Source of the DNA: Lunularia cruciata
Taxonomy: Eukaryota > Streptophyta > Marchantiopsida > Lunulariales > Lunulariaceae
Length of the DNA stretch: 64,000 bases
Assembly (NCBI GenBank): GCA_948567375.1
Contig: OX419757.1
Coordinates: forward strand, 26,096,732 to 26,160,731
Direction of reading: 5' to 3'
Shown: in pieces, positions 7,978 to 59,468 of the stretch
How the letters are laid out: each line of letters opens with the position of its first letter
Numbering within the stretch: position 1 is the stretch's first letter
Position numbers and translations under genes: made by a program
The notes under the pieces: generated by a model
What the model saw: the letters and a program-made list of their open reading frames with translations, nothing else
The model's database searches: none
Told to the model about the DNA's origin: nothing

Positions 7978-8631
7978 TGTAATACCAATAGCTACACAGA
8001 TGATCTAGAGGTGAAATTTGGTTTGGTAACATCTAGAAGGATGTAATACAAAATGGACTTAGTACATTAGACAGAGGTATCACCAAAAGAGTACTTCTAC
8101 TAATAGGTCAAAAATCAAAACATGCTTGGAAACTTTACATTCAATAGCTAGGCATATGATCCAGAGGTGAAACTTGAGGTGGTGACATATGGAAGGATAT
8201 TGCACATGATGGAGAAAGTAGATTTGATAGAGGTATCACCAAAAGAGCACTTCTACTAATAAGGAAGAAGCCAAAATAGCCCTAAAAACTTTAGAGGTAA
8301 TTTTGGAGGCCTAAACGGATGAATTTAGCCTCAAAAATGTGTAGATGATCCATGTGATTCTAAGATTCCTAAAGGAAGATACCCTAAACCCTCTTTCTTG
8401 TTTGACCAACCAGATGGGACCAGGACCAACATGTCACCCATCCAAGCAAGTAATCTAAGAGTGGAGCTTGCTGACAAGTCACTTATCCATGTACCTAATC
8501 CTATGGTAGAGCTTCATTGGAGGAGATCCTCTTTGGCTATAGAATAAAAAAAGTGCTCCTTTAAGGCATCAGAGTTTGGGTGTGGAATTCTTGTTTTCTC
8601 TTTTGTGTTTCTCTATCCTTGGAATATTACA
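7978..8631 (+). repeat. Element 1 3' LTR
   Basis: Begins tgtaatacc and ends tattaca. It is collinear with the 5' LTR at 342-987 and followed by the target duplication cttga. Confidence 0.92.
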
Positions 8632-14929: not shown

Positions 14930-16117
14930 TGGGAAATAGGCAACTCAAAATCTCCTATTGGGATTCCTCATTACCCTGATTGTTTTGCTCCACAAACTGC
15001 ATCTGGGCAACTTGTCGAGGTCGCCCATTCTTGAGTGGACATTCAGCAATACAATGTCCCAATTGGTGATAATAAAAACAACCTCCATTTTGTTGCAGTT
15101 TCTCTCTATCTGTAGTGTGAAGTGGTCTTTGTTGAACGGCATAAATCTCCATTGGTATTGGTTCCTACACCTATGTGTAATGTATTAGTAAGTTCTGTTG
15201 AGGTCGAGATTGAGACAAAGTTGTGGCAACCAAGGAATCAAAATGTTTGGCCAATTGCATGGCTTCTTCCAAGTGTTGTGGCTCTTGCATGGTTACCTCT
15301 AATTTGGTTCTTGACTTCAAGCCCCTCACAAATTGATCCAGAGCTTCACCTTCTAGTATATCTAGAATTTGCATGATGGTGTTCTGGAATTGCATGATGT
15401 AACTTCTTACAGAGCCAATCTGTTTCAACTTAACCAACCTATCCCATGCAGCTCATGTGGCATTTATAGCTTGGAACCAACTAATTATTGCACTCTTGAA
15501 TTTTTCCCACATCAAGATTGGTGTAACCATTTTTCATTCAGCTTGCTCCACTCAGAATCTCCACCATAGCTTTGCTACTGCATCCAATTGGCTAGAAGCC
15601 AAGAGAATCTATTTTTGTTCATCTTGTAGATTGGTAGCTTCAAAATAACGTTCAAATCAAACATAAAATTCTCCATTGCATCTGGGATATTCTTGCTTTC
15701 AAATACCTTGGGTTTAGGGAATTGGATTTGATCTTCTCCTTCTCAAACTGGTACTCTCTCTACATACTCTAGTCATCAAAGCTCTTGTTCATCCAACAAT
15801 CAAGTAAGGTGCTCAATTTGTTGTTGCATAGCAAGGATAACCTCAAGCATTGCCACCATGGTTGCTACTCTATCATGCAACCCCTAATCTATCTAATTTA
15901 TTAACACATAGAAGTAGCACGTCCATTGTTCTCCATAAGTTACAACCGGAAGCACCAAGGGTTCCTCACATATGGTGATCATATGCATTAAATGTTGTCC
16001 AAAGCATGAGGTGATGAATTGTGTGAAATGATGCTTGGGTAGTAGTTGGACACAAAAATCCCAATGGTTTGGTGGAAGTGGATTTGGTAGTCCCTAAATT
16101 CCATCTATTCCATTCTT
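14930..16117 (-). pseudogene. Element 2 gag (broken)
   Basis: The minus-strand frame 15437-15171 has the capsid C-terminal block VRSYIMQFQNTIMQI...LDQFVRGLKSRTK, typical of plant gypsy gag. Downstream (15152-14955) a zinc-knuckle region reads GGCFYYHQLGHCIAECP, with the second Cys changed to Tyr. The upstream part, to the primer-binding site, is recognisable only by similarity to Element 3 at 33070-33760. Confidence 0.78.
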
Positions 16118-16130
16118 GCTCTAATTCCAA
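16118..16130 (-). other. Primer-binding site of Element 2
   Basis: On the minus strand TTGGAATTAGAGC directly follows the 5' LTR. It is a decayed match to the initiator-Met site (TGGTATCAGAGC). Confidence 0.75.
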
Positions 16131-16555
16131 TGTAAAAGACCAAAACCAAGGAGATAAATAGGAGAATGGAAACTCACATTGGGACACTTGAATGTGGGAA
16201 AACTCCAAATGCCTAGCATGAGCTTTGGCTTTGGTATTTTAGGTAGGATACAAGACCCTTGAGAAGCTTCTCAAGAAGCTTCTTTGAGCTTCTTTCTTAG
16301 AGTGCAAGCCAAGTTAACCAAGAAGCTACTCAAGAAGCTTCCTTTTAGAAGCTTCCTTCTAGAAGCTGCCTACTTGGTATGCAAGCTAAGCTAGTTGGAA
16401 GTTTCTATAAGTTACATACTTGGGGTGCAAGTTAAGCTAGTCAGGAAGCCTCCCAAGAAGCTTCCTAGGTGCTTCTAGAATATTTTGGGCTAATTTGGCT
16501 TGTTCTCTAATTTGTTAGCCTTACTAACTACGTCGCTAAACTCCATATTGTTACA
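16131..16555 (-). repeat. Element 2 5' LTR
   Basis: Starts tgtaaaagac, ends ttgttaca, and pairs with 8981-9392. It has the same clustered GAAGCTTC/TTCTAGAA palindromes in U3 (about 16260-16480). Confidence 0.9.
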
Positions 16556-16560
16556 AACAT

Positions 16561-17043
16561 GATACAAAAATTTGAAGAAGATGACCAATCTTTGTATCCT
16601 AGATGTCAATGCAAGCCTTAAATGCCTATGGGAGAGAGAAGAAGAGCAACAACAAAGATATGCAATGATTTGTTGAATTAAATCCAAAGTGAAAGAACCA
16701 ATCTAGAAAAAAAATATAGATGGGGCTCCTTGCCATGACCAGGCATATGTCCACTCAACTTCTGAACCAGTTGGAATGCATTGCAAACAAGAAACTAGCA
16801 TGCAAAGTTGAAAGACTTAAGAACATAGATTGATGTATTGGAGAGGAAGCCCTATACAATCAACCAACTCAAGGTATTGTTTGTCAAACTACAAGAGCAT
16901 ACCAATCCCAAGTTCAAGGAACTTAGATCATGTTTGTACAAATAGTTGATTATTATAGGAACAAGCTTGTAGAACTCATTTAGACATACAAAGGAGCAAG
17001 TAGTTTGTCAGAAGTGTCACTTGCTTGTATCAACAATGAATAA
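16561..17043 (+). pseudogene. Oldest layer: coiled-coil remnant (part C)
   Basis: This is the right flank of Element 2. It continues the frame of part B (YKNLKKMTNL, WEREEEQQQRYAMI). After frame changes it shows another Lys/Leu-rich stretch (INQLKVLFVKLQEHTNPKF). It is more decayed than parts A and B. Element 3 starts at 17044. Confidence 0.42.
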
Positions 17044-17496
17044 TATAAAGACCAAGAAGAAAAACCGGAGAATGGAAGAAGGAAAGGTAAAGTCACATTG
17101 AAACTCTCCATTGTAAGGAAATACAAATCCCTAGCATGAACTTGGGCTTTGGTATTTATAGTGAAGCAACACAAGGCTCTTGAGAAGCTTCCAAGGAATC
17201 TTTTTTTCAAAACCGCCTTCTTGGCATACAAACTAAGCTACCCTAAAAGCTACCAAGGAAGCTTCCTACTCAAAGCCACGCACTTGGCATACAAGCTAAG
17301 CTAGCCTTTAACTTGATGTGCAAGTTACCCAATCCTTGGAAGGTAACTAGAAGCTTCCCACTTAGAAGCTTCTAAAGTGTTTCTAGAACATTCAACCAAG
17401 AAGGTTCTTAGATGCTTCTAGAACATTCTTAGAATTCCTAACTATATTGGCTTATTTTACTAACCTATTAGTCTTTGCTAACTCTATATTATTACA
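17044..17496 (-). repeat. Element 3 3' LTR with heat-shock-type motifs
   Basis: Starts tataaagacc (TG decayed to TA) and ends attaca. On the minus strand the TATA box TATAAATACC lies at 17151-17160. Upstream of it are TTCTAGAACATTC at 17381-17393 and again at 17416-17428, each a perfect TTCnnGAAnnTTC array, plus several GAAGCTTC palindromes. Confidence 0.88.
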
Positions 17497-22595: not shown

Positions 22596-23047
22596 TGTCA
22601 CGCCATTTGTAGTATTGCATCTAGATTGTTCGGACATTGGAGTTCGAGTGATAGTAGTTAGAGTTATTTCTGCAGTTTCTCAAATCCTACTTCCCGATGG
22701 TCAGATTTTGTGTTTGGGTTATTGACTTCACGGTGGAGCCCACCGTCACTTTGCACCATTTGCACTATTGAGTGTGCCATCAGCAGGACCATTAGGGTTC
22801 AGACCTAGCTCAAGACCAGGGGGTATACTTTTGAAGTGCAGCTCTATAGAGCTCACTTTTCTGATGTTCAGCCTTTGAGTTCTTGGCTATGGTGGATAGA
22901 GGCCGGCGAGCGTCACCTGGATTCTCTTAGCTAGAGTGGGTGTGACTTGACTGTAATAAGTGCCCAGTTGTTGGCAGTTTATAGAGTGACAAATCAAGTA
23001 CTGATCTAAGTTGAGTTGAGTTGAGAGTGGTAAACAATCTGATTACA
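22596..23047 (+). repeat. 5' LTR of the methyltransferase element (5'-truncated)
   Basis: Matches 31717-32034 plus 32789-32919 of the 3' LTR, and ends gattaca at 23047. The first 100 bases of the 3' LTR are absent here and are replaced by the remnant at 19643-22595. A conserved small stem, ACGGTGG/CCACCGT, lies at 22730-22746. Confidence 0.82.
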
Positions 23048-24613
23048 TCAAAGAAGTGAAATCAAGGGGAAATTAGGTGCAAGAACTTTGAGTGTTGGTG
23101 GTATTTCCAAGCTCGATGGATGGTTGGTAGCTTGATTGAAGTTCAGTTTTTCTCTAGTGTGCAAAAGCTCGTTGCTTGATGGAGATTTGGCAGTAAGGCA
23201 GATGGTGTGTGGAAGCGTTGGCCAATTTTTGAGCACAAAAGGAGCAAATTTTGAGTAATGGTTATGATTTTGAGCTCAAGAGGTGAAGGCAAGACCAATT
23301 TGTTGCGAGTTGGGCTTAGAAAGTAAAATTGAAGATGGAGTTGGGAAGCTATTCTCATGAATTTGTGATTTGGAGAAACCCATGTGTTCAATTTGGCTCA
23401 AGTGAAAAGTTAGTGGGAGATTTGGTGGTCAACCAACTTTAGGGTTTACTTCAAATTTTACGTAAGATTTTGGCTGTATTTTATGTCATATTTTGGCCAG
23501 ATTTGGAGGAGTTTTGCTGTTTAGCCAGATTTGGAGGAGTTTCACTATTTAGCCAGATTTGGAGAAGTTTTGCTAGTTTGGAGGACTTTCACAAGTTTAG
23601 AGGAGTTTTGCCAAATTTTGGAGGAGCTTCAAAGTGGCAAGAAGAAAAGCCTCATTTTGGGCTTAGAGGCTTCAAGGCATAGGGCCGTGGGCTATGAGAG
23701 GCTACAAAGGCCTAGAAAGCAACTTGATGGCGTGAGGCTAGCTAGTTTAGAGTAGATCTTGGTCATTGGTTGGCAAAATTTGCCCATCCTGCTAGATTAT
23801 GTGCAACAAGGTTTGACTCCTAGATCTCTTGTTCCTAGACTGGTGGCCTAGCCAATTGGTCCACCCTCACTTGTTGTCCTAGTGACTGTGCCACTATTAT
23901 CTATACACTTGTAGCTTTGGCTAGGAGAGGCAATTTGATCCTATTCTTGGTGATCCTAGTAGCTTAGGACTTGGATACAAACTTCTCTTATGTCAAATGC
24001 CAAATGGTGGTAGAGTCAATCCCATGTTGTTTTATGAGATGGAGGGTTTTTGTTTAGATTTCTTGTGATTGGACCCCCTCCATTCTCTACTTCTTATTTG
24101 TGCACCATGTTTGTATGAGGTGCCCTAACTTTTGAGGATTGGTGCTCTGGTGTGCTCTTGGTAGTGAGGCTGGAGTGATGACTAATGAGACTACCTTTGT
24201 TTCTCTCCGGTGAGGCAAGAAGTGATGACCTACAGACCGTGAGAGTGCGTGTTGTGATGGTAAGTTACAGGTTGCCCTTTCCCCTAGTGTAGTTATCTTG
24301 GATAGAGTTACATTAGAGGATGGTGCTTAGTTGGTGTTGGCACTTGGTGGGGTACTTGCGGTTGCAATTTGTGGTTCCGGTTTGCCGTTGTAGTTTGTGG
24401 TTGCGGTAACTTTGTCACGATGGAGTTCTTTGGGGATTCCAGAGTAGATAGCTCTGCAGAACACAATGGGTTTACTTAGAGTGGTACTTGCTATCAGCCT
24501 GTATCTCAAGTCTAACTTGAGATACAGGCTGATACCAAGTACCAATGAGGGAGGAGATTGACTCTGAGTTGGAGTTTGACACATGAGTAGATTCAGTTGA
24601 GAGTGCACTTGGT
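23048..24613 (+). other. Leader region of the methyltransferase element
   Basis: About 1.57 kb between the LTR and gag with no convincing ORF. It holds tandem copies of a 27-30-base unit built on AGCCAGATTTGGAGGAG (23495-23610). It also holds the strong hairpin at 24482-24544. No clear tRNA primer site follows the LTR end at 23047. Confidence 0.6.
24482..24544. repeat. 30-bp inverted repeat with 3-nt loop upstream of gag
   Basis: The left arm is 24482-24511 and the right arm 24515-24544, with one mismatch and the loop CTA. It would fold as a long, almost perfect hairpin in the element RNA, 70 bases before the gag ATG. The right arm, read on the minus strand, contains TTGGTATCAGCCTG, close to the initiator-Met primer site. 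Confidence 0.9.
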
Positions 24614-25435
24614 GTGTCCGCACCGTTGTTATGGGACATGCACAAGATTTATGGGGCCTCTAAAGGCCCTAGACTTTACTCTGGTACAGTGGGTACCATT
24701 GAGTTGGATAACTTCATCGAAGAGCTTGATAGTTGGTGTGATCTACAACAGAACCTGACTTTGTTTACACCTTTCATGGCATGGAAGGGGTTGGGCATGC
24801 ATCTAAAGGGTCCGCCAATGGATGACTATCATGAGTTCAAGAGAGCTTATTTGGAGGAGATCAAGTTATGGAGACAATATTGGTCTCCAAACTATGTCTC
24901 TATCACTTTAGGTTTGGTGGCTAGGAGTAGATTGGCAGTACCTACAAGTTCTAGCTCAAGTAGTGTTGGTGGAACTAGTGGAGGTGCACTAGCTAGAGAT
25001 AGTTTTACCACAAGTGCAGGTATCGCTGCAGGAGGTGGTGTGGTACCGGGGTTTAACTCCATGGTGGAGTTCTTCTTGTGTTTGAGGCAAAACTACCAAG
25101 GAGTACGGATTGACAAGTTGAGGAGCTTGCAAGAGTTCCAGTGGAAGGCTGAAGAGAGCCTATGCAAGGCATACACTCACATGAGGCAGCTGATCAGGTT
25201 CACTCAGGGAGTTACTGAGGCCCATGCAGTCCAATTTTGGTATGGGATACTAGACAGGGAGTTGCGACATAGAGTTTGTGATGCTATGTTGTTACAGGCT
25301 ACTTTGCCTACTTTGGCAGTGGTCTTTGGTTTGGCTGAGCATATTGAGCTCAACATGGTGGAGGAGAGAGTGGTGACATTTAGATTTGGTAAGGAAACCT
25401 CATCCATGGTTGTGACTTCTTCTAGAGTGCAGTAG
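24614..25435 (+). CDS. Gag/capsid-like ORF of the methyltransferase element
   Basis: The longest open frame in the element (273 residues). An N-terminal helical region (residues 20-100, with FMAWKGLGMHLKGPP) is followed by a Ser/Gly-rich linker (residues 110-145). A second helical block (residues 150-235, with LQEFQWKAEESLCKAYTHMR and FWYGILDRELRHRV) resembles the retrotransposon gag capsid fold. It would form the particle shell. The zinc knuckles lie downstream in another frame, so a frameshift separates them. This ATG is the first in-frame start after the leader hairpin. Confidence 0.72.
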   Translation: MSAPLLWDMHKIYGASKGPRLYSGTVGTIELDNFIEELDSWCDLQQNLTLFTPFMAWKGLGMHLKGPPMDDYHEFKRAYLEEIKLWRQYWSPNYVSITLGLVARSRLAVPTSSSSSSVGGTSGGALARDSFTTSAGIAAGGGVVPGFNSMVEFFLCLRQNYQGVRIDKLRSLQEFQWKAEESLCKAYTHMRQLIRFTQGVTEAHAVQFWYGILDRELRHRVCDAMLLQATLPTLAVVFGLAEHIELNMVEERVVTFRFGKETSSMVVTSSRVQ

Positions 25436-25519
25436 AGTGCACAATGCCCAGTTGGTTTTTGAGGACAGGGTGGATAGCCTAGATCCCATGGAGCAAGTGG
25501 AGGGCCTAGTGGAGTTAGA

Positions 25520-25546
25520 CCCTTAAACCCTTAACCCTAAACCCTT
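25520..25546 (+). repeat. Short telomere-like tract inside gag
   Basis: Four consecutive units: CCCTTAAA, CCCTTAA, CCCTAAA and CCCTT. They are degenerate copies of the plant telomere repeat CCCTAAA and lie where gag changes frame, before the zinc knuckles. Confidence 0.65.
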
Positions 25547-25563
25547 TAGATCAGCAACAACCA

Positions 25564-26088
25564 ATGAGTGGTGGTGTTGCCTGTTGGACTTGTAGTGGAC
25601 TTCACCATCAGAGAGAGTGTACTCAGGGCAGTGGACTTGATACCTTGGGTGCATCACAGCCAACACAGAGGCAGTGTGAGTATTGCCACAGATTTGGTCA
25701 CACTAGTGACCGGTGTTTTGACCTACACCCAAAGTTACGGAGTGGTAGGGCTGCTATGGAAAGTAGTAGAGGAGCTCTAGTTCATGGAGGACAAAGTGGT
25801 AGAGGTGGTGGTAGAGGATCTACACCTAGTAGGGGTGCAGTACTTGCCTTTACTTGAGATACAGCTATGGCTACTTGGATTGAGCAGTTGGAGCAGAGAT
25901 TGGCTAGTATGGCTATTGCTCAGAGGAGATCAAATTTGGGTGCCGAGGCTTCCACTTCATATGTTGGTGACAGAGATGCTTTGGACTTCATGTGCAGAGC
26001 ATCACAGGTGAATGCATATGCAACAGTGACTAAGAGTGTAGTACGTGCTCCAAAGCCTAGAGGAGCATCAGTGGAGTTGGACCCATAG
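25564..26088 (+). pseudogene. Two zinc knuckles and linker of the methyltransferase element
   Basis: The frame at 25564 begins with CWTCSGLHHQREC (25582-25620), a variant knuckle. It then has CEYCHRFGHTSDRC (25675-25716), a canonical C-x2-C-x4-H-x4-C knuckle. A Gly/Arg/Ser-rich tail follows. These bind element RNA in nucleocapsid. After a stop at 25855-25857 the same frame continues at 25867-26088 with a helical stretch (TWIEQLEQRLASMAIAQRR). Confidence 0.82.
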
Positions 26089-26187
26089 AGAGGAGAGATT
26101 GGGAGACAAGTTGGACTTCCCTAGTCTTTCACGCTATCTGAGGCATTGTAGACGACATCTATAGTTCCTAGACGTCCCAGTGCAGGT

Positions 26188-26935
26188 GTGGTAGGTGGTG
26201 ATGGAGTACATGATGGACTACCTACTAGTCAACCACTTGCTATTACACAGACAAAGTCTAGCATGATGTTGGGGGCGGCTCAGCTGATTATGCGGCATCC
26301 TTTGTTTTTGGCCAGTGATATGTTTACATTGAGAGTTGACCCAGCCCCAATGTTCTGGTTGGCTGCTATGCTTTTTGACAGTAGGGGCAATGTGGTTCCT
26401 ACTACTAGAGCAGAGGTGGTTGGTAGTGGAGCTGACTTGGTTGAGGAGCATGAGATCAGTTCAGCAACCAATGGTTTATGGCAGGCAGCAACGGCTAGAC
26501 TGGAGGAGTTGCCAGCTAGACCGGCCTTTGAGAGAGCACGGTTCACACATAGTGTTTTCCTATTGGATAACTAGAGGGGGATTTTCAGTTTGGTGGGACC
26601 TTCAAGGAAGGTCTATACACCACAAAGAGTCTTGTTAGACTATGGTGCGTAGCCCTTTATGTTGGAGAAGGCTGCAATTGTCGGTTTGGAGTTATGGAAG
26701 ACCGATGTGGAGAGGTGTCTATTTCAGATCCAAACATCTCTAGGTGGTGGTTTGACATAGTACATCACACGTGGGAAGCTTGTTGTCCAGGTTCAGCTTG
26801 GTCATTTGATTGATAGCTTGGTGGTGAGAGCTTAGGCTATTGCGACAATAGCTGAGTCATATGATGTGCTAGTTGGGGGAGGCAATGTTATACCCCATGG
26901 GTTTCATCATTGACTATTAGGAGGAGACAATCTCC
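26188..26935 (+). pseudogene. Retropepsin region of the methyltransferase element (broken)
   Basis: The frame at 26188-26574 is a linker. After a stop, VLLDYGA at 26629-26649 sits where the aspartic protease D-S/T-G-A motif belongs; the catalytic Asp codon is 26638-26640 and the next residue is Tyr. A stop follows at once. ESYDVLVGGGNVIP (about 26855-26900) resembles the protease C-terminal flap region. The enzyme would cut the polyprotein. Confidence 0.68.
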
Positions 26936-27339
26936 TATAGGCCAGGTTGGCATTTGGTGCGGGACGGGTATGTCATCTACCAGTACAATTCAATAGTGGT
27001 AGTCTTGGCTCACTACACTCCAAGACCATGGTAACATCAGTTTTAGATTTTAGTGGTGCAGCTACTTGGCTTGGCGGCTTGTTGGAGTGGAACACCCGTG
27101 TAGAGGATACTCTAGTACCAGAAGAGATCACTTGGATTTGTAGTACAAGTGGGATTGTTCCATCCATCTTGGATGTTCTATTGTGGAGTTTAGAGAAGGC
27201 ATTGCAACAACATGCAGATCAATTGGTACAGCAGGCTTGGAGTAGAGCCTTCATACCATTAGGAGATGAGTGTGAGGATGAGCTTCCAGGGTCAATTACT
27301 TTGACACCTCTAGATACCACACTCATTGCTTGGCAATAT

Positions 27340-28260
27340 CCAGTAGAGAGGATATGTCTATTGGAGTTGTTCAGTGGGATTAGCACCGGACTAGCTACGA
27401 TATTATAGGCGGGTATACAAGTACAAAGGTACTTGTATGTAGAGAGAGATGAGACTGCTAGGCAAGTCTCTCTACATCATGTGGCACACTTGGCCTATTG
27501 ATATCCGGAGTTATTACCAATATCAATAGTTAGAGGTTACTAGAAGGCCCTACCAGCAGACATTTCCTCACTAAGGGCGCATGATCTGGAGAGACATGGG
27601 CCTATTCACTTGGTGATTTCTGGATGGCCATGTCAAGGACATATACGTGCTAGTAGAGGTTTGGGTCTTCAGGATCCTTGTTTTGGTGTGTTTTGGGAGA
27701 TGTTTTAGATACTACAACATCTCCAGGTTCATAAGTCCATTCCTCCAACTTACCTTTTGGAGAGCGTTCCTTTGATGGGTGATTCTTGCACCAAAGTGGT
27801 GGCGAGTACACATCAGGTCTATTCTTGGATGGGATCTTCTATATTGTTAGATGTAGCCAGAGTGGGATCATGGGCTCATCATCTTTGTCTTTAGTGGATG
27901 AACCTCTTACCCAGAGAGGTTCTACAACGTGCTTATGATGGGATTCAACAACTTGACCACATCCTTGTTGATGATATCTTGGATGTTGGCGTCAGTATCA
28001 GATAGTGGTAGTGGCTGATAGGTCACCTATGGTAGTGGTGAACCTAGTTGGACAGCCTAGAGCCGCATTTCCCACACTCATGAGTTTCCCAAGCTCTCAC
28101 ATGCTGGGAGTGATGGACCGAGTGGACATGGTATTCTTGGGACACAACTAGTCGCTACTAGGTAGAGTGGTCTACTTGGAGTCCATCCAAGTGAGCGTGG
28201 GCTACTTGGATTACACCCTTGGTCCACCTGGGATGCAACTAGAAGACATGTGGAGCTTGC
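27340..28260 (+). pseudogene. C5-cytosine DNA methyltransferase domain within gypsy pol (broken)
   Basis: The open frame from 26947 leads into CLLELFSGISTGL (27355-27393), motif I for S-adenosylmethionine binding. After stops in the same frame comes HLVISGWPCQGH (27607-27642), motif IV with the Pro-Cys pair; the catalytic Cys codon is 27631-27633. LLESVP at 27754-27771 is motif VI (usual ENV, with Asn changed to Ser). DVARVGSWAHHLCL at 27850-27891 is a motif VIII-like block with expected Arg residues replaced. Frame-shifted C-terminal blocks follow (GQPRAAFPTLMSFPSSH at about 28054-28104, and another near 28190). The active enzyme would transfer methyl groups to cytosine C5. It lies between protease and RT of the same element, on the same strand. 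The subfamily (Dnmt3/DRM-like or other) is not settled. Confidence 0.85.
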
Positions 28261-28489
28261 AGCCAGAGTGGAGGGAGTTTTTCACACAGAGGTTGGGACC
28301 TCTAGTGGTCGGGTGCATGACACTATTGCTCCAAAGGGCCCAATGTAGTAGCCAATCAATATGTCTTCCACTCCTACTATAATTACATAGGATACTTGGG
28401 AGCCCGATCTTGGACCCAAGCTTATTGGAGAGGAAAGACGGAGGGTTTGGAGGTTCTTAAGGAGCCATACAAGTTGTTTTGTCTTCAAT

Positions 28490-29400
28490 ATGAAGGATTT
28501 GGGTGCTCTAAAGGAACCTGGTATATGGATTGAGCTGACTAGCAATACACTAGTTTTCCGACGTTCTTATCAATATAGTGAGATGGAGAGGACATTGATT
28601 CAAAGCCGGAGTAGTGACCTTTTTGAGGCTTTTTTGGTGGAGATTTCACATGGAGAGTATGCATCAGCAATAGTGATGCCAGCCAAGAAGGATACACATG
28701 GCAACTACACAGATAAGCGGATGTGTGGAGATTACCGTCCTATCAACCAAAAGACTAGGGCTGATCAATATGCCATGCCTACACCGGAGGAGATTTTTGA
28801 TATGATTGGGCATGCAAAGGTCTTCAGTACTTTGGATCTTCAAGCGGGATATCATCAATTGCTGATCAAGGAGGAGGATAAGTCCAAGACAACATTCTGG
28901 GCTATTGATCCTCACGGTAAGGATGTGTTATATTAGTGGAGGTTCTTACCATTTTGGCTAAAGAACACTCTTGTTGAAGGTCATGGATAGGATCTTAGCT
29001 GGATTGGATTTTGCTCGGTGCTATATTGATGCCATTTTAGTCTATAGCACTATTGTGGAGGAGCATGAGAGACAATTGTTGGAGGTGTTTGAGAGGTTGA
29101 GATCTCATGGACTCAAATCACATCTTGGGAAGTGTAGGTTCTTCCACAAATAGGTTGAGTATTTGGATCACACTACCCCGGAGGACTTGGTGTTCAACAG
29201 ACCAAGGTGGAAGCTATTGCACGTATTCCTTGGCCTACGGATGTGAGCAGAGTCTGAGCATTCCTTGGGTTGGTGAACTTCTATCACTACTATGTTAGAG
29301 GATTTAGTGCCATTGCCAAGGCCTTGACAAAGCTGACCAAGCTTACACATGAGTGGTGTTGGGGAGATGAGCAGGAGAGAGGTTTGTAGAGCTCAAGGAG
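28490..29400 (+). pseudogene. Reverse transcriptase of the methyltransferase element (broken)
   Basis: The frame at 28490-28936 has DTHGNYTDKRMCGDYRPINQ and VFSTLDLQAGYHQLLIKEED, standard gypsy RT blocks. After a frameshift, CYIDAILVYS near 29019-29046 is the catalytic motif, with the second Asp of the usual Y-x-D-D changed to Ala. GKCRFFHK closes the palm region, and the thumb follows in other frames. Confidence 0.88.
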
Positions 29401-29439
29401 AGGTTGACATCTACTCCTATTTTGAGGAGACAGATTTGA

Positions 29440-29850
29440 GGACGACCATTTCAGGTTCATACTGATTGGAGTATGTTGCGGCTTGGAGTGGTGCTCACCC
29501 AGCATGATGATGAGGAGAAGGAGTTTGTGGTGGCCTATGCTAGTCGCTCCAACAATTCAGCGGAGGCAAAGTATAGTTCATATGAGGGAGAGTGCTTGGC
29601 AGCAGTTTGGGCAGTAGTACATTTCTGATGTTACCTATTTGGTAACCCCTTCACTCTCATCACTGATCATCAGCCAGAAGTGGTTGATGGAGTCCGACAA
29701 GCTTTCAAGGAAGGTTGCATGATGGGCTCTGATTTTATAGGAGTATGATTTCATGGTTGTTCACAGACTTGGAGTGGTGAACCATGATGCAGATGGGTTG
29801 AGTAGAAATCCATGTCTCAGCCAACAGGATCAGATTGGAGCATGTCGGCA
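29440..29850 (+). pseudogene. RNase H domain of the methyltransferase element (broken)
   Basis: [17 protein letters not shown] starts the domain, with the first Asp kept. [31 protein letters not shown] follows, in blocks with the catalytic Glu. LITDHQPEVV carries the third Asp. A frame change leads into the 29753 frame (HDADGLSRNP), a typical RNase H-integrase junction. Confidence 0.85.
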
Positions 29851-30184
29851 TGGTGAGACAGATGAGCAGATGGTGCCAGGTTGGCATGCATCTGTCTTTG
29901 TGTGTATGTTTTATGAGGCTTTGGTGGTATCTCTCTCAGTGCATAGAGGAGGAGTTATTGAAATCATAGATCCAGAGAGTGTAGATATTGGTGCAGTTCA
30001 GCAAGACATTCATGATGATGTCTTAGTGATGGACTGTCTTTGCACTTGTGTTATGGGTGACATAGTTGGGGCCAAGGAGAGAGACCATGTCCTTCAGCGA
30101 GCCAGACGATTCAGATTGGAGGGTAGACACCTTATGCATGTATGGGAGGGTGGTAGAGTGCAAGTAGTACCACTTCCATCATAG
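29753..30184 (+). pseudogene. RNase H end and linker to integrase, methyltransferase element
   Basis: A 143-residue open frame starts with the NHDADGLSR block and continues through an acidic linker unlike the short linker of Elements 1-3. It ends with RFRLEGRHLMHVWEGGRVQVVPLPS, the usual lead-in to the integrase zinc domain. The linker function is unknown. Confidence 0.7.
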
Positions 30185-30189
30185 AGACC

Positions 30190-30931
30190 ATAGTTGGTCC
30201 GTCATGCTCATGAGGAGCTAGGACATTTTAGAGTAAAGCATACATATAACTTACTCCAGAGCCATTATTGGTGGCACGATATGCAGACCAAGGTACAACA
30301 GTTTGTTGCCAGATGTGTGGTTTGTGACCAAGTTAGAGCATCATTCAATGCTCCTACGCCATAGTTACACCCATTACCTATCATGGGATTGGGTTACCGT
30401 TGGAGTTTGGACTTCACCAGACCTTTATCATTGATTGTGAGACATCATTGGTATGTTTTGGTGATGGTAGAGCACTTCTCCAAGTGGATTGAGTTGGTGG
30501 CACTTCTTGACAAGTCTAGTGAAAGGACAGATTACTCATTCCCAAATCGAGTTCTTAGTCATTTTGGTGCACCAGCTGAGGTTTTGACTGATCAAGGTAT
30601 AGAGTTCTTGGGGGAGTTTCAAGTCTTGTGTGACAAGGCTTTGATTGATCATTGTACTACCTCCCGAGATCACCTTGAGGTAGATGGCTTAGCAGAGAGA
30701 GTGGTTCAGACGGTGAAGAAAGGATTGCAAAAGTATGGTTTGCAGAGAGGCCACTTGGGAGATTGGGATCTCCAGTTACCTTGGTTGGCCATGGGCTATT
30801 GGTTCAGTCGGCAAGCCTCCTTAGCATCCTTCTCTCCGTACTTTCTACTCTATGGACAAGATCTAGATTTACTTGTAGCCATTTGTCAAGATGCTACTAT
30901 CATTTTGGACTTGGATGACCTCCATGTATAG
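30190..30931 (+). pseudogene. Integrase of the methyltransferase element
   Basis: HHCC domain: HEELGHFRVKH, then CVVCDQ (30205-30335), all four ligands visible. Core: WSLDFTRPL (first Asp, about 30402), VLTDQGIEFLGEF (second Asp, about 30590) and DGLAERVVQTVKKG (Glu, about 30690), so the D,D,E triad looks intact. The open frame at 30383-30931 covers 182 residues. This is the best kept part of pol. It would insert the cDNA. Confidence 0.9.
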
Positions 30932-31114
30932 ATGAGCACATGTTCTTAGCAAGTAGAGATCTTTTGGAGAGTGATGGCGATGGCCTTTGAGAACTTGGTG
31001 ATTGCTTAGCATAGAGATACTTTACGCTATGCTACCATTTGAGGAGGAAGTTATAGACCCTTGATTTGTTGATTGCATCCAAGAGACTATGTATATCTAT
31101 AGAAGACAGCACCA

Positions 31115-31447
31115 ATGACACTTGATGTTTTGGCATGCCACACTATCTTGAGCGTGTGTGAGGTTTTGCCATCTAGAGTCCTTTTGTTAGAAGGATGTGA
31201 TGGTGTTGTTTGGAAGGATCATGTGCGCAATTGTGTGCCATGCCACCTCCCAAACATTGATGGTACTATGGACCCAAGCTTGGCACTTGTACGTGCATGC
31301 TTGAGGTGTATGTTATGTGGCTCTTTTGGTGGAGCTGTTACTATGTTAGTGTATGATAGCTATTCGAGAGGATGGCATATGGTATGTATGACTCCTCCCC
31401 TCATGGTGGTTCCTCATAGATAGTGCTTATGTCTTAGATGTACTTGA
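31115..31447 (+). pseudogene. C-terminal PHD-finger-like domain of the methyltransferase element
   Basis: The frame is the same as integrase. A C-x2-C pair (NCVPCHL, about 31230) is followed by RCMLCG (Cys codons 31307-31309 and 31316-31318). Next comes VYDSYSRGWHMVC, where the third and fourth expected Cys are Tyr (31352-31354, 31361-31363), then His 31376 and Cys 31385. TPPL follows. After a stop at 31421 (expected Trp position) come C-x2-C at 31430-31441 and a final stop at 31445-31447. Order and spacing fit the C4HC3 PHD finger, including the GWH-x2-C and TPPL hallmarks. PHD fingers bind histone H3 tails; here one replaces the chromodomain of chromoviruses. Both Tyr and the stop fit G-to-A decay. 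Confidence 0.78.
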
Positions 31448-31604
31448 CCTATAGCTAGTTCATTCTTTATATGGTATAGATTGCGGACAGATGACTAATG
31501 ATAGAGCTCCATATGACCCGGCCTCTTGATCTTTGCCCATTATAGTGTATACCATATACTTCGAGTAGATGGCTATCTAGAGTTAGAGGGACCTAACTGC
31601 CAGC

Positions 31605-31615
31605 TAAGGGGGTGA
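31605..31615 (+). other. Polypurine tract of the methyltransferase element
   Basis: TAAGGGGGTGA lies directly before TGTGGCAC at 31617. It marks the start of the 3' LTR and fixes its left border. Confidence 0.75.
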
Positions 31616-31616
31616 T

Positions 31617-32919
31617 TGTGGCACTTTAGAGTCTATGTATGACTTGTGTGTGAGTTGTGCTTCTATAGTGTATGATGTTGACAGCGATGTATGTTGTGTA
31701 GCAATGTAATACGCACAACAACTATCACACCATTTGCATTATCGCATCTAGATTTCCCGGACACTAGAGTTCCAATGATAGTAGTTAGAGTTATTTCAGC
31801 AGTTTCTCATAGACTACTTCCCGATGGTCAAATTTTGTGTTTGGGGCACTGACTTCACGGTGGGGCCCACCGTCACTTTGCACCATTTGCACCAAGGAGT
31901 GTGCCGTCAGTGGGACCGTTAGGGTTCAGACCTAGCTTGAGTCCAGGGGGTATACTTTTGAAGTGCAGCTCTAGAGAGCTCACTTCTCTAATGTTGAGCC
32001 TTTGAGTTTCTGGTTATGGTGGACAGAGGCCGGCTGTAATACTCCAAGGACAAGAGAAGAGAGAAAACATAGATTGCACACTCAAACATTTGATGCCCCA
32101 AAGGAGCACCTTCTCTTTATTATATAGACAAAGAGGATCTCCTCCAAGGAAGCTCTACCATAGGATTAGGGACACAGATAGGTGACATGTCAGCAAGTTC
32201 CACCCTTAGAATACTTACTTGGATGGATGACATGTCTGGTCTAGGTCCTATCTGGTTGGTCAAACAAGCTTTCACCAGAGGGAATCTTTTAGGGAATCTT
32301 CCTATAGGAATCTCAGAATCACGTAAGGTACCATTGGAAAGCTCTTGATGAGACAAAGCAGGAGGGGAGGGAAGGCTAACCTTTCCTCCATTGGTTGGGG
32401 GGGGGGGGGGGGGGGTCTGCATATTTTTGAGGCCTAATTCATCCGTTTAGGCCTTTGAAATTGCCTTCAAAGATTTCAGGCATATTTCGGTTCCTATTCT
32501 ATTTGTAGAAGTCCCCTTTTGGTGATACCTCTTTCTGATCTGTTTAGTCCATCATGTGTAATATCCTCCTAGATGTTACCAAATCAATTCTCACCTTTAA
32601 ATCATATGTCTAGCTATTGGTTCTAAAGTTCTCAAGTCTATTTCGGTTTCTGCCATATTAGTAGAAGTACTCTTTTGGTGATACTTCTATCTTATCTATT
32701 TTGACCATCATGTATAAAATCATTCTAGATGTTACCAAACCAAATTTCACATCTAGATCATATGGCTAGCTCTTGGTATTACACCGGCGAGCGTCACTTG
32801 GATTCTCTTAGCTAGAGTGGGTCTGGCTTGACTGTAATCAGTTGTTGGCAATTTATAGAGTAACAGATCAAGTACTGATCTGAGTTGAGTTGAGTTGAGA
32901 GTGGTAAACATTCTAATAT
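31617..32919 (+). repeat. 3' LTR of the methyltransferase element, split by a solo LTR
   Basis: Starts TGTGGCACTTTAG after the polypurine tract. Removing the 749-bp solo LTR and one duplicated target site leaves about 550 bp. From 31717 onward it pairs with the 5' LTR at 22596-23047. Confidence 0.82.
32035..32783 (-). mobile_element. Solo LTR of the Element 1 family
   Basis: Starts tgtaatact and ends gtattaca. It is the reverse complement of Element 1 LTRs over most of its length and is flanked by perfect ccggc target duplications (32030-32034 and 32784-32788). A run of 19 G lies at 32397-32415. It is the youngest event in this LTR. Confidence 0.92.
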
Positions 32920-33022
32920 TGTGGCACTTTAGAGTCTATGTATGACTTGTGTGTGAGTTGTGCTTCTATAGTGTATGATGTTGACAACAATGTATATTGT
33001 ATAGAAATGTATATATGCATGA
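32920..33022 (+). repeat. Second copy of the 3' LTR start, head to tail
   Basis: TGTGGCACTTTAGAGTC and the next 85 bases repeat 31617-31717, with mostly G-to-A differences. The repeat begins exactly where the preceding LTR ends. It stops where Element 3 gag resumes. It looks like the start of another LTR, cut off. Confidence 0.8.
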
Positions 33023-33774
33023 CAAGAATCAACATCATGGTGTTTTGAAATTGAGAAATGTAACTTCACATTGAACTGACCTACCTCAATTTTGCCAATC
33101 AATTTTGTGTAGCATCTTAACTTAGAATTGCCAAATGATTGCACTCTTGAAGTAGTTCCATGTTAAAATTGGAGCCAAAAATTGCCATTGAGTTTGCTCT
33201 ATCCGGAGTTGTCATTATAGTTTTTCCACTCCATGTAGTTGACTTGAAGCTAAGAAGATCTGTCTTTGATAATCTAGGAGATTTATGGCTTCAAAGTAAC
33301 AATCACAATTGAACACAAAGTTCTCTAGTGCATCCAATAGATTATTGCCTTCAAAGACCTTCAGTTTTGGGATCATACATGATCTTCTCCTTCTCAAAAT
33401 TCTACTCTTATTTTTGCCCATCATAATCTCTCTCTTCCAACAATAGACTAAGATGCTCAATTTGTTGCTACATAGCAATGATAACTTTAGGCAATGCCAC
33501 CATGACTACTATTCTATCAACTATCTACTTACAATTATCTAAATTAACACATAGGTGCAATATATCTATTGCTCTCTATAAGTTACAATTTGGAAGAATC
33601 AATTGTTCATTAGACAAGGTGACTATATTCAAAATATCATGCCCAAAAAAACAAGTGATGAATTGCTTGAGATGGTGCTTTGGTAGCACATTGATATAGA
33701 AGTCCCAATGGTTTGGGAGAGGCTGATTTAATGGTCCATAGATTCTATCCATCTCATTCTTGCTCTAATACCAA
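33023..33774 (-). pseudogene. Element 3 gag remnant and primer-binding site
   Basis: On the minus strand it aligns with Element 2 gag at 15370-16130. The frame 33478-33215 has LDALENFVFNCDCYFEAINLLDYQRQIFLASSQLHG, a gag capsid N-terminal block. The primer-binding site TTGGTATTAGAGC (33762-33774, minus strand) lies next to the LTR and matches initiator-Met with one change. Confidence 0.8.
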
Positions 33775-34164
33775 TATAAAAGAATGAGGAAAGAAATTGG
33801 AGGATAGAAGAATAGAAGGTCAAAACTTTCAATTGCATGGAACTCCAAAGCCTTGCATGAGCTTTTTGGTATATATAGTGAAGCAACACAAAGCTCTTGA
33901 GAAGCTACCACAAAAGCTTCTCTCTAAAAGTTGCCTTCTTGAAGTGCAAGCTAAGCTAGCCATTAACATGATGTGCAAGTTACTTAATCCTTGGAAAGTA
34001 CCTAGAAGCTTGCTATTAAAAAGCTTTCAAAGTGCTTCTAGAACACTTGACCAAGAAGCTTCATAGATGCTTCTAGAACATTCTTAAAATTTCTAACTAT
34101 AGTTGGCTTATTTTACTAACTTAATAGTGTTTGCTAACTTGTTGGCTAACTCTATATTATTACA
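33775..34164 (-). repeat. Element 3 5' LTR
   Basis: Pairs with 17044-17496, starts tataaaag and ends attaca. It contains TTCTAGAACATTC at 34071-34083 and several GAAGCTTC-like motifs upstream of a minus-strand TATA box near 33872. Confidence 0.87.
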
Positions 34165-46258: not shown

Positions 46259-47019
46259 TCAAGCCTCTATAGATAGAGCTGTCACCTCTACATCTTCCGA
46301 GTTTGAGGAATCTTTAGCATCCTCAACCTTCTCGTGTTCATCAGACGCCACCTTCTCCTCTGAACACGTTGCTGAAACTGGAATGCCATCTTCGTTTTCA
46401 GGAGTAGATGGATGTGGAGCGGGCCTTTCAGCATCGACCTCCTTTGTACTTGAAGGCACTGAGGGGTCTATTTGCTTGACTTCAGCTGATTGGCCGTCTT
46501 GTCCTGTAAAATCTGCTAACACTGAATCTTCGGAAGGCTTCGTTTCTGTGGCCGCTAAGTCCCGTTTGTCATTTTCTGCCTTCTCTGCACTAAGTCGCCC
46601 TTTCTCTAGTCGACCTTTTTCTTCCTTCTCTTGAAGCTCCTTCTCTTGGGCTTCTGCTAGTCGCTGAATATATTCTTCTTTCTTCGCCATGATTCTTTCT
46701 ATTTTGCCGTGGATCTTCTCCAACTTCTTTTGTATCCTCTCAACAGTACTCTTCTTGTTCTTTTTCTCCTTCTTTTTGTCTTTTTTGTCTTTTTTGTCCT
46801 TGTCCTTCTCAGCTTCTCCACTCTCGAGACCTTTGTCTTTCTTTTCTTTCTTCTCCTTCTTATCCCCATCCCCATCGTCCTTCTTCTTGTCCTTCTTGTC
46901 CTTCTTGTCCTTCTCACCATTGTCTCTATCCTTCTTTTCCTTCGTCTCTTCCCCGTCTTTACCCTTCTCTTCTACGACCTCCTTCCCATCCCCATCTTCC
47001 TTCACAGTCCCATTGGACC
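46259..47019 (-). CDS. Lys/Glu-rich exon of a spliced gene
   Basis: A minus-strand open frame of more than 250 residues. The N-terminal half is a charged repeat of KDKKDKK, KKEKK and DGDGD units. A predicted coiled coil follows (RIQKKLEKIHGKIERIMAKK, then EYIQRLAEAQEKELQEKEEK), then an acidic Ser/Pro/Thr-rich tail ending at TGA 46259. A 3' splice site (cctgcttcag, before 47019) gives the likely exon start; an alternative lies at gtttttgtag (47052). The composition suggests a nuclear scaffold- or chaperone-like disordered protein. No family is assigned. Confidence 0.55.
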
Positions 47020-48525
47020 CCACCTGAAGCAGGTTCAAATCAGGCATTACTACAAAAACAATCACTCAACCGTGAACCCTACTCGTGAGAAAATTCGATA
47101 AGAAACAGACCAGTGAGGCATCCTATCACAACCTCTTTTCGCAAGTTCTTTCGTAAGATAAGGCTAGGTTTCTGAAACAAAAAGTTCTCTTAAGAACAAA
47201 AACCAAGCGTTGCGTGTGACAGAACCACGACAACCTTTCCAATAAGCATCACATTCTAGGTGTGAAGTAGACAGACCATATCTGGCCTTCAAACTCAGAT
47301 CCCCAACCAAACTCACTAGAAAGCCCATAATCTGATGCGTAATACAAACTCATGACAATCAATCTCAGTACCTTCAGTTTAAGATCAGCGGTACAAATCT
47401 GTTTCTTCTAATTTGATTGAACTTTCCCTCGAATAAGCCTGACTCCTAAGATGCTTGCCCTCTTACCGGAAAGGCGTACATTTGACCAACAGATTGAACA
47501 TGCACATAAGTATGTCCATGAGATGCCAAATAATCTTCCAGGGGTTCAGTCCATGCATACAAATTTTCACTGTTGGGAAAGCCAGCGTAGTCAGACCGTC
47601 GGCTGACTCACAGCCCAGTAAGATGCAAGAAACTCACAGAAGAATCTAACCAACAGTAAACGAAGTCGTAGGATGTTAGGCTTAGACCTGACGCTGGGTA
47701 AAGAGATCGCGACAGTACCAGATGAAGAAAGCCGAAGATCTCTAAGACCTTGTAACAAGCAGGATGATCCCCAATACTAAAATGTGATCAGCTAAAGATT
47801 CCTAGATTATCTGCACACATAACGACTGTTCAAGCTCTAAGTAGGGCAGGATTAAAAACAATATATTGCTCCTTCCCGAATGTATGGTGGAATAATCCCG
47901 AATGTATATTACATAGTGAAACATAGGGGAACAATTAGATGGGAGAATTCATGGGTCCAGCCGTACTGTAAGCAACCATATTTTCGTTACAGAGACCTAA
48001 CTCCTGTGCATACAGGCACACTGAAGACGTTTAGCTTTTGGGTCTACTACAACGGGAACAAGAAATTGCATAACGAGCTAAAGTTCGGGTGCTCAAAACC
48101 AGCTAGCGATCTGATGACAGTCTTTGTAACAGGAACATAACTTCCACTAGAAGCTGCAAAATGCATCCTTAATATTGCCAAATATAAGTAAATCCCAGGG
48201 AAAGGCTGGTCTCACAAAATATCATAATAGGAACAAGGGATGGTCGTACAAGTTGGGGAGATAGAAACCAACCTATTACAGAGTGTGTGGTTAGCAGCAA
48301 ACTCTGATTTCTCACACAGGTGAAGACTAAAGTTCTTCACACCATAGAAAATCCTATCAAGAGGTTTACCAACCATGGCAGTAACTTTGGGTTTTGCACC
48401 TAAGGTACTGAATGCGGACAACAGCTCTGGCTACTTACTCTCAACTACTTCTAGTTACAGTGTTGCTCTTTCCTCTGTATATAATTCAGAAAGGCGGTAG
48501 ATCATGACTATCTTTAATCAGTGCA

Positions 48526-57609: not shown

Positions 57610-58200
57610 TCATCCCAAAGAGCAACATTGAACGTTAAGCAAGTTCATGTATAACTTGAACTTCTCAATAGGAACAGGTTTAGTCAACATATTAGCTGCA
57701 TTTACCTTTGTGCAAATCTTTTGCAAATTGATCTCACCATTTATCGCAGTTTCCTTGATAAAATGATGTCTCACATCAATATGCTTTGTCCTTGAATGAT
57801 ATACTTGAGTTTTGGCCAAGTAAATAGTGCTTTGGTTATCACAAAAAAGTGTGTGCTTCATTTAGGGAGTCCTACGTCCTTGGCTAATCTTTGTAGCCAT
57901 ATTGCCTCTTTGGCAGCTTCAATTGTTGCCATATATTCTGCTTTTGTAGTAGAAAGAGCAACAGTAGATTGGAGAGTAGAATTCCAATTTCCTACACCAC
58001 CAACAAGTGTAAGAACAAATCCTGTTGTAGACATTCTCTTATCCAAGTCTCCAGCAAAGTCAAAATCTACATACCATGTAATTCCTCCTTCTTGGTCCTC
58101 CACATCAAAGGTAATGCCAATATTTATAGTCCCTTTCAAGTAACGAAGTGGATACTTCACGACTTCCCAATGTTGTTTCCCTGGATTTGCCATATCTACT
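57610..58200 (-). pseudogene. Copia RNase H (broken)
   Basis: WYVDFDFAGDLDKRMSTTGF holds the first Asp. ALSTTKAEYMATIEAAKEAIWL holds the Glu. FCDNQSTIYLAKTQVYHSRT and KHIDVRHHFI follow in the next frame (57861-57610). A stop at about 57859 separates the two parts. Confidence 0.88.
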
Positions 58201-59208
58201 CACCATACTCACAACATATGAGATGTCTGGTCTAGTGCAGACCATAGCATACATTAAACTCTCAACAGCACTAGCATAAGGAATATTTGGCATTTCTTTT
58301 CTCTTCTCTTCATTTGATTGACATTGCTCCAATGATATCTTGAAATGACTTGCCATTGGAGTGCTCACTGGTTTTACATTCTCCATGCCAAACCAAGCAA
58401 GTAATTTTTCCAAATATCTCCTTTGAGATATCCATAACTTTCCCTTGCTCCTATCCCAGTGGATTTCAATCCCAAGCACCCTCTTTGAAGAACCCAAGTC
58501 CTTCATATCAAACTCCTTACCAAGTTGTACTTTCAATTTATCCACCTCAACCATATCCTCTGCAGCAATCAGCATATCATCCACTTATAGTACCAAGATG
58601 ATTAAATCAAATACTCTAGGTCCATTTAGCTTCTTGAGGTACACACAACAATCTGATTCACTTCTGTTATATCCATGCTTCAACATGAAAGCATCAAATT
58701 TCATGTACCAAAGTCTTAGACTTTGCTTTAGTCCATATAAAGAATTTTGTAACCTACAAACCAGGTTCTGATACCTTTGTACCACAAAACTTTTAGGTTG
58801 ATGCATGTAAATCTCCTCCTCCAATTGTCCATGTAAAAAATCAGTTTTAACATCTAGTTGCTCCAACTCCAAGTTATGCAATGGAACTATTGCCAATAGT
58901 GCATGAATTGACGAGATTTTCACCACTGGTGAAAAAATCTGATTGAAGTCAATACCTTCTTTTTGGCTATAACCACCCTTTGCTACAAACCTTGCTTTGT
59001 ATTGATCTCCACCTGATTTTGGAAGTCCTTCCTTCTTCCGGAATATCCATTTGCAACCAATTTCCTTCTTTCCCACAGGCAAATTTTCAAGTCTCCAAGT
59101 TTGGTTTTTGGCCAAAGACTTCATCTCGTCTTCCATTGCACAATGCCACTTTTGACACTCTTGATCTTGCATTGCCTTTTCATATGAAGAAGGCTCACCA
59201 TTCTCCAT
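58200..59208 (-). pseudogene. Copia reverse transcriptase (broken)
   Basis: WRLENLPVGKKEIGCKWIF starts the domain at about 59110. LEQLDVKTDFLHGQLEEEIY and CRLQNSLYGLKQ are diagnostic copia blocks. The catalytic VDDML at 58584 is cut off from its Tyr by an in-frame stop and a 2-base shift. KRVLGIEIHWDR and SPVWSLMYAM-type blocks follow. Confidence 0.9.
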
Positions 59209-59222
59209 AAGAAGAGCATAAG

Positions 59223-59468
59223 CTATAAATGAATAATTAATTCTCTTTGGAGCTTCCTATCCTTTTTTGGATACCTATGTTCATGAATCACTTTTGGACT
59301 TTGCTCTTCTAAAGGTTCACTTGGTAGATCTACAAGAGGTGAGATGTCTTCATTTCCAAGATCAATATCTTTCTTAACAAAATCTGACTGAATTTGTTTT
59401 TTTGTTTCTTCTACTATAGTAATAGTCTCCATCGTATGCATCTCATCAAAAGCTACATCTCTACTCAC
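59223..59468 (-). pseudogene. Copia integrase-RT linker
   Basis: A minus-strand open frame starts MSRDVAFDE, the standard copia block after integrase. An acidic Ser/Pro/Glu stretch follows, ending before the RT frame. Confidence 0.75.

Follow-up and report, generated by a model that had tools for sequence, protein, structure and literature searches.

Chromoviruses, the Ty3/gypsy retrotransposons with a chromodomain, carry a chromatin-reader module behind their integrase, and in dinoflagellates SymbioDIRS-Dnmt3, a member of the DIRS order with a tyrosine recombinase, holds a Dnmt3-type domain in its retroelement polyprotein. The closest described system is KnitGypsy-Dnmt3 of Klebsormidium nitens, a charophyte alga, for which the available text of de Mendoza et al. 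2018 (PMC5890265) describes a domain in the Pol ORF and DIRS-like repeats. The same text puts forward the idea of self-methylation, and reports de novo CG methylation in yeast by SymbioDIRS-Dnmt3 and none by KnitGypsy-Dnmt3, the latter result being called inconclusive by its authors. A 2025 re-survey notes retrotransposon-borne DNMT3s in streptophytes and dinoflagellates (PMC12344493, available text), and a 2019 opinion paper states, in its accessible part, that land plants, such as tracheophytes, lack transposons of this sort (PMC6338049). An orchid Ty3/Gypsy element with an m6A demethylase domain has also been described (PMC9289625, available text). DNMT3 is not mentioned in the available text of the Marchantia methylome paper (PMC5784723). 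Our search of the open literature, which covered titles and abstract openings and had subscription journals mostly outside its range, returned no report of such elements in land plants and, within the same scope, no PHD finger reported with a retroelement methyltransferase.

Here we describe a retroelement from the liverwort Lunularia cruciata which we think likely to belong to a numerous Ty3/gypsy family with a fixed DNMT3-type domain, for which a leaky stop, methylation of itself or of its target site, and PHD targeting are predicted. As in KnitGypsy-Dnmt3, an unrearranged Dnmt3-type domain with its key residues kept is coded within a Ty3/gypsy element whose host is a streptophyte; the liverwort element differs in its direct LTRs, in the position of the domain, at the end of ORF1 and ahead of a TAG, and in its PHD finger. 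With SymbioDIRS-Dnmt3 it shares a Dnmt3-type domain in the polyprotein and differs in host lineage. Like the chromoviruses it has a reader behind the integrase, but the reader of the liverwort family is a PHD finger, and Pfam scans of the relatives gave no match to a chromodomain.

Results

A decayed Ty3/gypsy element with a methyltransferase between protease and reverse transcriptase

The window, that is, the whole stretch of 64,000 nucleotides analysed here, is part of contig C6 (26096732-26160731) of an assembly of 565,766,749 bases in 74 contigs. A decayed Ty3/gypsy LTR element spans window positions 22598-32917, with a C5-methyltransferase between protease and reverse transcriptase (RT), and is made up of the following features.

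22598..23043, + strand: 5' LTR, homologous part; left end shorter than the 3' copy
24587..25857, + strand: gag region, open pieces 24587-25435 and 25519-25857; collinear with Marchantia P0050
26575..26940, + strand: aspartic protease region, LLDYGA at 26632; collinear with P0052 and P0071
27349..28100, + strand: DNMT3-type C5-methyltransferase (assigned by motifs, tblastn and family profile), motifs I-VIII, decayed
28098..28099, + strand: gap of ~285 bases relative to sister copies, over motifs IX-X; alignment breaks against family copies
28346..28358, + strand: ORF1/ORF2 junction, TAGTAGCCAATCA, site of TAG-CARYYA in sister copies, by comparison with these
28391..29150, + strand: reverse transcriptase, two open pieces; Pfam RVT_1, family RT profile E 6e-61 and 2e-23
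29440..29625, + strand: RNase H; family profile E 2.7e-31
30194..30928, + strand: integrase, H2C2 and core; Pfam rve 2e-10, profile E 3e-38 and 1e-17
31295..31414, + strand: PHD finger behind integrase, decayed; profile E 4.4e-15
31606..31612, + strand: polypurine tract AAGGGGG, directly before TGATTGTGG
31613..32917, + strand: 3' LTR with an extra stretch at ~32035-32783; LTR pairs and polypurine tract

An RT and RNase H that precede the integrase, LTRs and a polypurine tract place the element in Ty3/gypsy (Metaviridae). The LTRs that the preliminary description had reported on both sides are present as two homologous pairs, 22598-22907 with 31725-32034 (87.7% over 310 b) and 22903-23043 with 32784-32917 (88.7% over 141 b), and the 3' copy holds ~750 additional bases inside it; since AAGGGGG at 31606 adjoins TGATTGTGG at 31613, the 3' LTR is taken to start there. 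A by-eye reading behind the 5' LTR gave no clear tRNA primer-binding site. The gag pieces of the window have no Pfam match above cut-off, and the Marchantia protein P0050 aligns to them at 54% over 24638-25531 and continues as the same protein to 27987. Asp_protease_2 was matched by Pfam in the relatives P0052, P0071 and P0132, above cut-off in P0132 only, and RVT_1 lies under the cut-off in the first RT piece of the window and over it in the second. Pfam PHD found no match on the PHD piece of the window, where the zinc ligands are decayed; P0095 of Marchantia, 63% identical to the window over 30545-31444, matches at 4.4e-9.

Several repeats accompany the element. The first 113 bases or so of the 3' LTR (31615-31727) recur at 90% directly behind it (32918-33031), resembling a tandem second LTR start, and the extra stretch of the 3' LTR includes a 156-base tandem duplication (78%) at 32460-32771, with another 156-base array at 7986-8276. 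Direct repeats of 73-83% at 15789-17446 and 33433-34101, 16.7-17.6 kb apart, flank the element, which may sit inside an older repeat. Elsewhere in the window, the minus strand has a K/E/D-rich open frame at 46262-47065 with MPDLNLLQ near its start and no Pfam match, possibly a host gene exon, and a Ty1/copia element at 58105-61132 with several long open pieces (RVT_2 E 5e-43 at 58588-59256).

The window copy of the methyltransferase domain

Frame +1 of 26947-28260 contains motif I (LLELFSG, 27358), motif IV (GWPCQG, 27622, Cys codon 27631), motif VI (YLLES, 27751) and a motif VIII block that reads RVGSWAHHLCL from ~27853; motifs I, IV and VI stand in one frame where the preliminary description had put them. 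Fifteen in-frame stops interrupt this stretch. Compared with the window by tblastn, the relative P0001 gave E 3e-95 with 60% identity over 257 residues (27223-27984), and of the 280 candidates scored in a protein search, 49 reached E 0.001 or lower (best 2.2e-78). It had been allowed beforehand that profile searches might give no methyltransferase score; stop-free pieces of the window score against the family profile at E 1.8e-17, 7e-16 and 8e-11. The Pfam DNA_methylase check that had been proposed came out divided: the window copy, read through with X, stays under the cut-off (E 0.088, 12.7 bits, cut-off 22) and its three intact pieces have no Pfam match, and five of eight relatives pass, P0001 best at 6.2e-11, with P0005 just below at 19.8 bits and P0037 and P0041 without a match. 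P0054 and P0086, gene models with gaps in the methyltransferase, likewise have no DNA_methylase match.

Motifs IX-X are missing from the window copy, falling in the ~285-base gap. Its methyltransferase is 82% identical in protein to copies in its own genome, and its DNA ~90-91%. Read from copy to window, 737 of 1,096 differences in six pairwise, non-independent alignments are C to T or G to A, an excess expected of methylated DNA; the element has a CpG observed/expected ratio of 0.25 and the window as a whole one of 0.31. The copy in the window is one of the older members of its family and is broken.

An in-frame stop behind the methyltransferase

UAG-CARYYA is the leaky-stop signal of tobacco mosaic virus, and SIRE1-type stop-codon suppression in plant retroelements employs a UAG followed by a CARYYA-like hexamer before an envelope-like frame. 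In copies fetched from the liverwort's own genome the gag-protease-methyltransferase frame ends at a TAG and the RT begins in the same frame, so that the sequence has the arrangement of tobacco mosaic virus type, in which UAG-CAR-YYA is in frame and the following frame continues in the same phase. The junction reads TAG-CAGCCA in 25 of the 30 fetched copies, TAG-CAGCTA in two and TAG-CAGCCT in one; TAG-CARYYA stands in the frame of the methyltransferase domain in 27 of the 30 and any in-frame stop in 28, L070 having the same junction letters in a shifted frame and the sequence of L072 ending before the junction. Genome-wide, TAG precedes 1,378 of 1,435 exact junction 26-mers beginning with CARYYA. 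The window's own junction, at 28346, does not fit CARYYA exactly. In the locus L029 (50% to P0001), ORF1 runs to 3488 and is followed by TAG-CAATCA and, from 3492, by ORF2 in the same frame with RT, RNase H and integrase beyond; CARYYA occurs there at 13 of 6,201 positions, and a stop with CARYYA once. Given that young copies are alike anyway, the L029 junction carries more weight than the own-genome count.

On account of the CARYYA hexamer, we infer that TAG-CARYYA is a leaky stop that would give the enzyme at Gag level. Among relatives that end behind the domain, 22 of 36 have tails of 80-133 aa, which agrees with the predicted stop, some perhaps being cut by contig ends; in P0132, P0094 and P0115 methyltransferase and RT lie in one uninterrupted frame. 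No conserved RNA fold follows the stop (z 0.02 in L062, not significant; z -2.7 in L029, moderate). Termination at the stop, with RT and integrase expressed separately by reinitiation or from a second RNA and without readthrough, would also be in keeping with the stop in 28 of the 30 copies and with the 22 relatives that end 80-133 aa behind the domain, but the RT lies in the same frame and the hexamer fits CARYYA both in own-genome copies and in L029, so that we regard such separate expression as rather unlikely. The predicted readthrough is like SIRE1-type suppression in its UAG and CARYYA-like hexamer and differs in that the stop here divides Gag-Pro-MTase from RT.

A DNMT3-type domain with conserved catalytic residues

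A profile (A2) built from eight domains and compared with the PDB matched DNMT3A best (2.3e-22), then DNMT3B (4e-21), with DRM at 7e-12, HaeIII and HhaI at ~1e-8 and DNMT1 at 0.17. These profile matches place the domain nearer to DNMT3 than to the bacterial enzymes, DRM or DNMT1. It shares with DNMT3A and DNMT3B the motif order I to X, and differs from DNMT3A in motif IV, which is SPCN there and WPCQ in the retroelement family; plant DRM, by contrast, is permuted and matches only in part. Motifs I, IV (with its Cys), VI, VIII, IX and X occur in unrearranged order in 85 relatives and 29 own-genome copies. All 85 domains have the motif VI Glu and the motif VIII Arg and Trp; 84 keep the motif IV Cys (the remaining one has a gap there), 77 the Pro that precedes this Cys, and 82 each the Gly of motif IX and that of motif X.

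That the domain no longer methylates DNA, and is kept for binding or for RNA methylation, has low probability in our view. The Pro before the catalytic Cys is replaced by E in seven of the 85 domains and by S in one, and neither KnitGypsy-Dnmt3 nor SymbioLINE-Dnmt methylated DNA when expressed in yeast (PMC5890265, available text); against this, the catalytic Cys, the Glu of the ENV motif and the motif VIII Arg are almost invariant, and SymbioDIRS-Dnmt3 methylates CG (same text).

A recent bacterial origin was considered and rejected: a scan of genome contigs gave 203 pattern matches, of which five encode a relative, four of them from Streptomyces at 27-36% identity. The fifth, the locus L029 described above, is on contig CADCWO010000201.1, filed under a Synechococcales cyanobacterium MAG; its layout of gag-PR-MT followed by RT-RH-INT makes this contig most likely a eukaryotic contaminant of the MAG. 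In viral contigs, 28 loci found with A2 encode a relative (27-53% in the best segment) and were taken as putative phage-type outgroups; three single-protein scans of viral contigs gave nothing. When 12 phage-type enzymes and DNMT3A pieces were included in a tree, the DNMT3A pieces fell with the retroelement domains and the phage-type enzymes stood apart at 100/100. In an AU test, a single clade of 27 retroelement methyltransferases was neither rejected nor supported (p-AU 0.352).

Relatives in liverworts and mosses, and two domain orders

With P0001 padded with X as query and only proteins of 0.55-1.75 times the query length scored, one search found at least 79 proteins among 8000 scored candidates and a second 77 among 5642. 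Marchantia polymorpha accounts for 20 of the 79 rows of the larger search, and Calypogeia fissa, Sphagnum troendelagicum, S. fallax and S. tenellum are also among the named relatives; no vascular plant and no Klebsormidium appeared among the relatives that bear organism names in these protein searches. P0050 and P0058 (both Marchantia) are collinear with window 24638-28100 and 26257-30136, respectively, and pieces of P0086 (Sphagnum fallax) from 24638 to 30751. The collinear relatives in Marchantia, Sphagnum and Calypogeia bear out the earlier proposal that the C5-methyltransferase is integral to a Ty3/gypsy polyprotein, and their proteins, together with the 66 of the 111 best-scoring own-genome copies that are free of stops in the domain, constitute the collinear family with open frames that was to be looked for.

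Among 107 proteins of at least 500 aa, the methyltransferase precedes RT or RNase H in 17 (order A) and lies behind RNase H in 33 (order B); eight have it with integrase only and 49 have no second domain that decides the order. RT, RNase H, methyltransferase and integrase are joined in a single protein in 30 of the 107, and both orders are supported by Pfam scans of relatives. The position between RNase H and integrase is a second, more diverse layout; it is seen in P0096, P0119, P0120, P0133-P0138 and P0140-P0154, most with a PHD finger. Relatives show the Cys4-His-Cys3 zinc ligands and the Pfam PF00628 match of a PHD finger, which is present in 23 of 28 order-B proteins with integrase sequence and in seven of the eight proteins with methyltransferase and integrase; it was not found in three of five order-A proteins with integrase sequence, two of which end inside the integrase.

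In a methyltransferase tree of 96 rows, made by a quick method that gave long-branch warnings, the window groups with Marchantia, Sphagnum and Calypogeia in a clade of 21 rows (SH-aLRT 99). The domain orders need two changes on this tree, which we put down to the long-branched P0155, one change on the RT tree (41 rows, support 93) and two on the integrase tree (38 rows). The place of the methyltransferase in the polyprotein has changed, or has been filled more than once. Distances in the methyltransferase correlate with those in RT (Mantel r 0.836, n=37) and in integrase (r 0.794, n=38), with 0 of 2000 permutations as high in either case, and these correlations together with the trees indicate that the methyltransferase domain travelled with the element.

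A numerous family in a liverwort genome

Searched against its own assembly with P0001, the family gave 111 matches, which were the best of 13,362 loose candidates, had E values no higher than 1.4e-174 and were 72-74% identical; the matches listed spread over C1, C2, C6, C7, C8, C10, C11, C12 and C15, 66 of the 111 have no stop in the matched domain, and 12 have an open frame of exactly 1428 aa, four of these with a stop inside the match. The exact motif-IV 26-mer has 1,068 sites in the assembly (reversed control 0) and the junction 29-mer 1,378 (control 0). An exact methyltransferase 26-mer lies 600-1500 bases upstream in 44 of the first 100 junction sites, where 0.08 would be expected by chance; at the other 56 it is absent at the expected distance, changed or lacking. 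The nearest own-genome copy is 75% identical to P0001, 74% to P0050 of Marchantia and P0053 of Calypogeia, and 60% to P0063 of Sphagnum.

The fetched copies are young and largely intact in the domain: 378 pairs from 28 of the 30 (L070 and L072 left out) diverge there by a median of 1.17% and at most 3.3%, and with L072 left out 23 of 29 are stop-free, GWPCQG, motif VI and motif X being kept in 29, motif I in 28, IX in 27 and VIII in 25. RT is present in 29 of the 30. Counting variants common to at least two copies, the per-site ratio of nonsynonymous to synonymous changes (N/S) is 0.33 in the methyltransferase (16 N, 16 S; 28 copies), 0.36 in RT (18 N including two stops, 14 S; 27 copies) and 0.44 in the stretch before the methyltransferase (7 N, 5 S; 27 copies); for singletons it is 0.60, 0.66 and 0.89, respectively. 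As the copies were picked by methyltransferase score, which favours conserved ones, the methyltransferase ratios lean low, and RT is less exposed to this; the numbers of variants behind the ratios are also small.

The preliminary description spoke of a seed-plant chromosome, a reading that the plastid contig of the assembly contradicts. Contig C74 (112,500 bases) carries frames that we assigned to rpoB, ndhB and rbcL by reading their sequence, psaA recognised through its PDB matches (closest 9lut and 8htu), a chlB found with NCBIfam TIGR01278 (2e-225) and, with TIGR00968, a cysA-like gene for a sulfate transporter ATPase (6e-91, 304 bits, below the cut-off of 342.75). We know of no angiosperm with plastid chlB and, to our knowledge, plastid cysA occurs in liverworts and hornworts and not in seed plants, so that chlB with a cysA-like gene points to a host outside the seed plants, most probably a liverwort. 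C74 is a small contig with a strong AT bias (GC 0.21-0.31 across six 10-kb pieces). The first 10 kb of contig C73 (191,351 bases) contain cob-like frames together with group II introns, so that this contig looks mitochondrial; its size of about 190 kb would suit the mitochondrial genome of a liverwort. For Lunularia cruciata, the available text of PMC9985172 gives a 580 Mb genome and bursts of Ty3/Gypsy elements.

Over its first 10 kb, contig C72 (35,026 bases) has open frames of bacterial or phage-like character, and it is probably a contaminant of the assembly. The presence of such a contig, and of none of the 111 matches listed on C3, C4, C5, C9, C13 and C14, could be taken to mean that the element or window is itself an algal or other contaminant; we consider this very unlikely, since the matches listed span C1, C2, C6, C7, C8, C10, C11 and C12 with coordinates up to 83.9 Mb, besides the 1.1 Mb C15, and since liverworts, at 74%, are nearest among the named relatives compared. 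That a host methyltransferase exon fell into a single element by chance, an outcome that the preliminary description had named as one to look for, is ruled out for practical purposes by the 1,068 motif-IV sites, the spacing at 44 of the first 100 junctions and the collinear relatives in other species.

Discussion

Our comparison of a broken window copy with its sister copies and with relatives in other species outlines how a methylation enzyme could be made part of a retrotransposon's life cycle. If TAG-CARYYA is leaky, Gag-Pro-MTase would be made at Gag level and the full polyprotein would be the minority product; the stop behind the enzyme suggests a component of the particle and not a minor Pol product. 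A methyltransferase packed in the particle could methylate the element's own double-stranded cDNA or the insertion site, so that a new copy would enter the genome already marked, and the PHD finger may bring the integrase to chromatin in which histone H3 is in a particular state.

We tentatively extend this to a broader proposal, which we hold to be possible but somewhat less than probable: that a land-plant lineage of retroelements couples a Gag-level methylation writer, made through a leaky stop, to a histone reader on its integrase, and so marks its own copies and chooses its chromatin; that its more than 1,000 near-identical copies in one liverwort may shape the methylome; and that the lineage is older than land plants, its methyltransferase having moved at least once.

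The kind of element is known from the Dnmt3 in a charophyte Ty3/gypsy, and its presence in land plants runs against their stated absence there; Marchantia proteins with this domain are already in public databases. Liverworts and Sphagnum have such elements, with over a thousand in one genome. This gives a land-plant system, with Marchantia near as a genetic model, for finding out if a transposon coding for de novo methylation benefits from being silenced, uses silencing to hide, or alters the host methylome. If the predicted activity is real, de novo methylation coded by the element may shape the methylome of its host.
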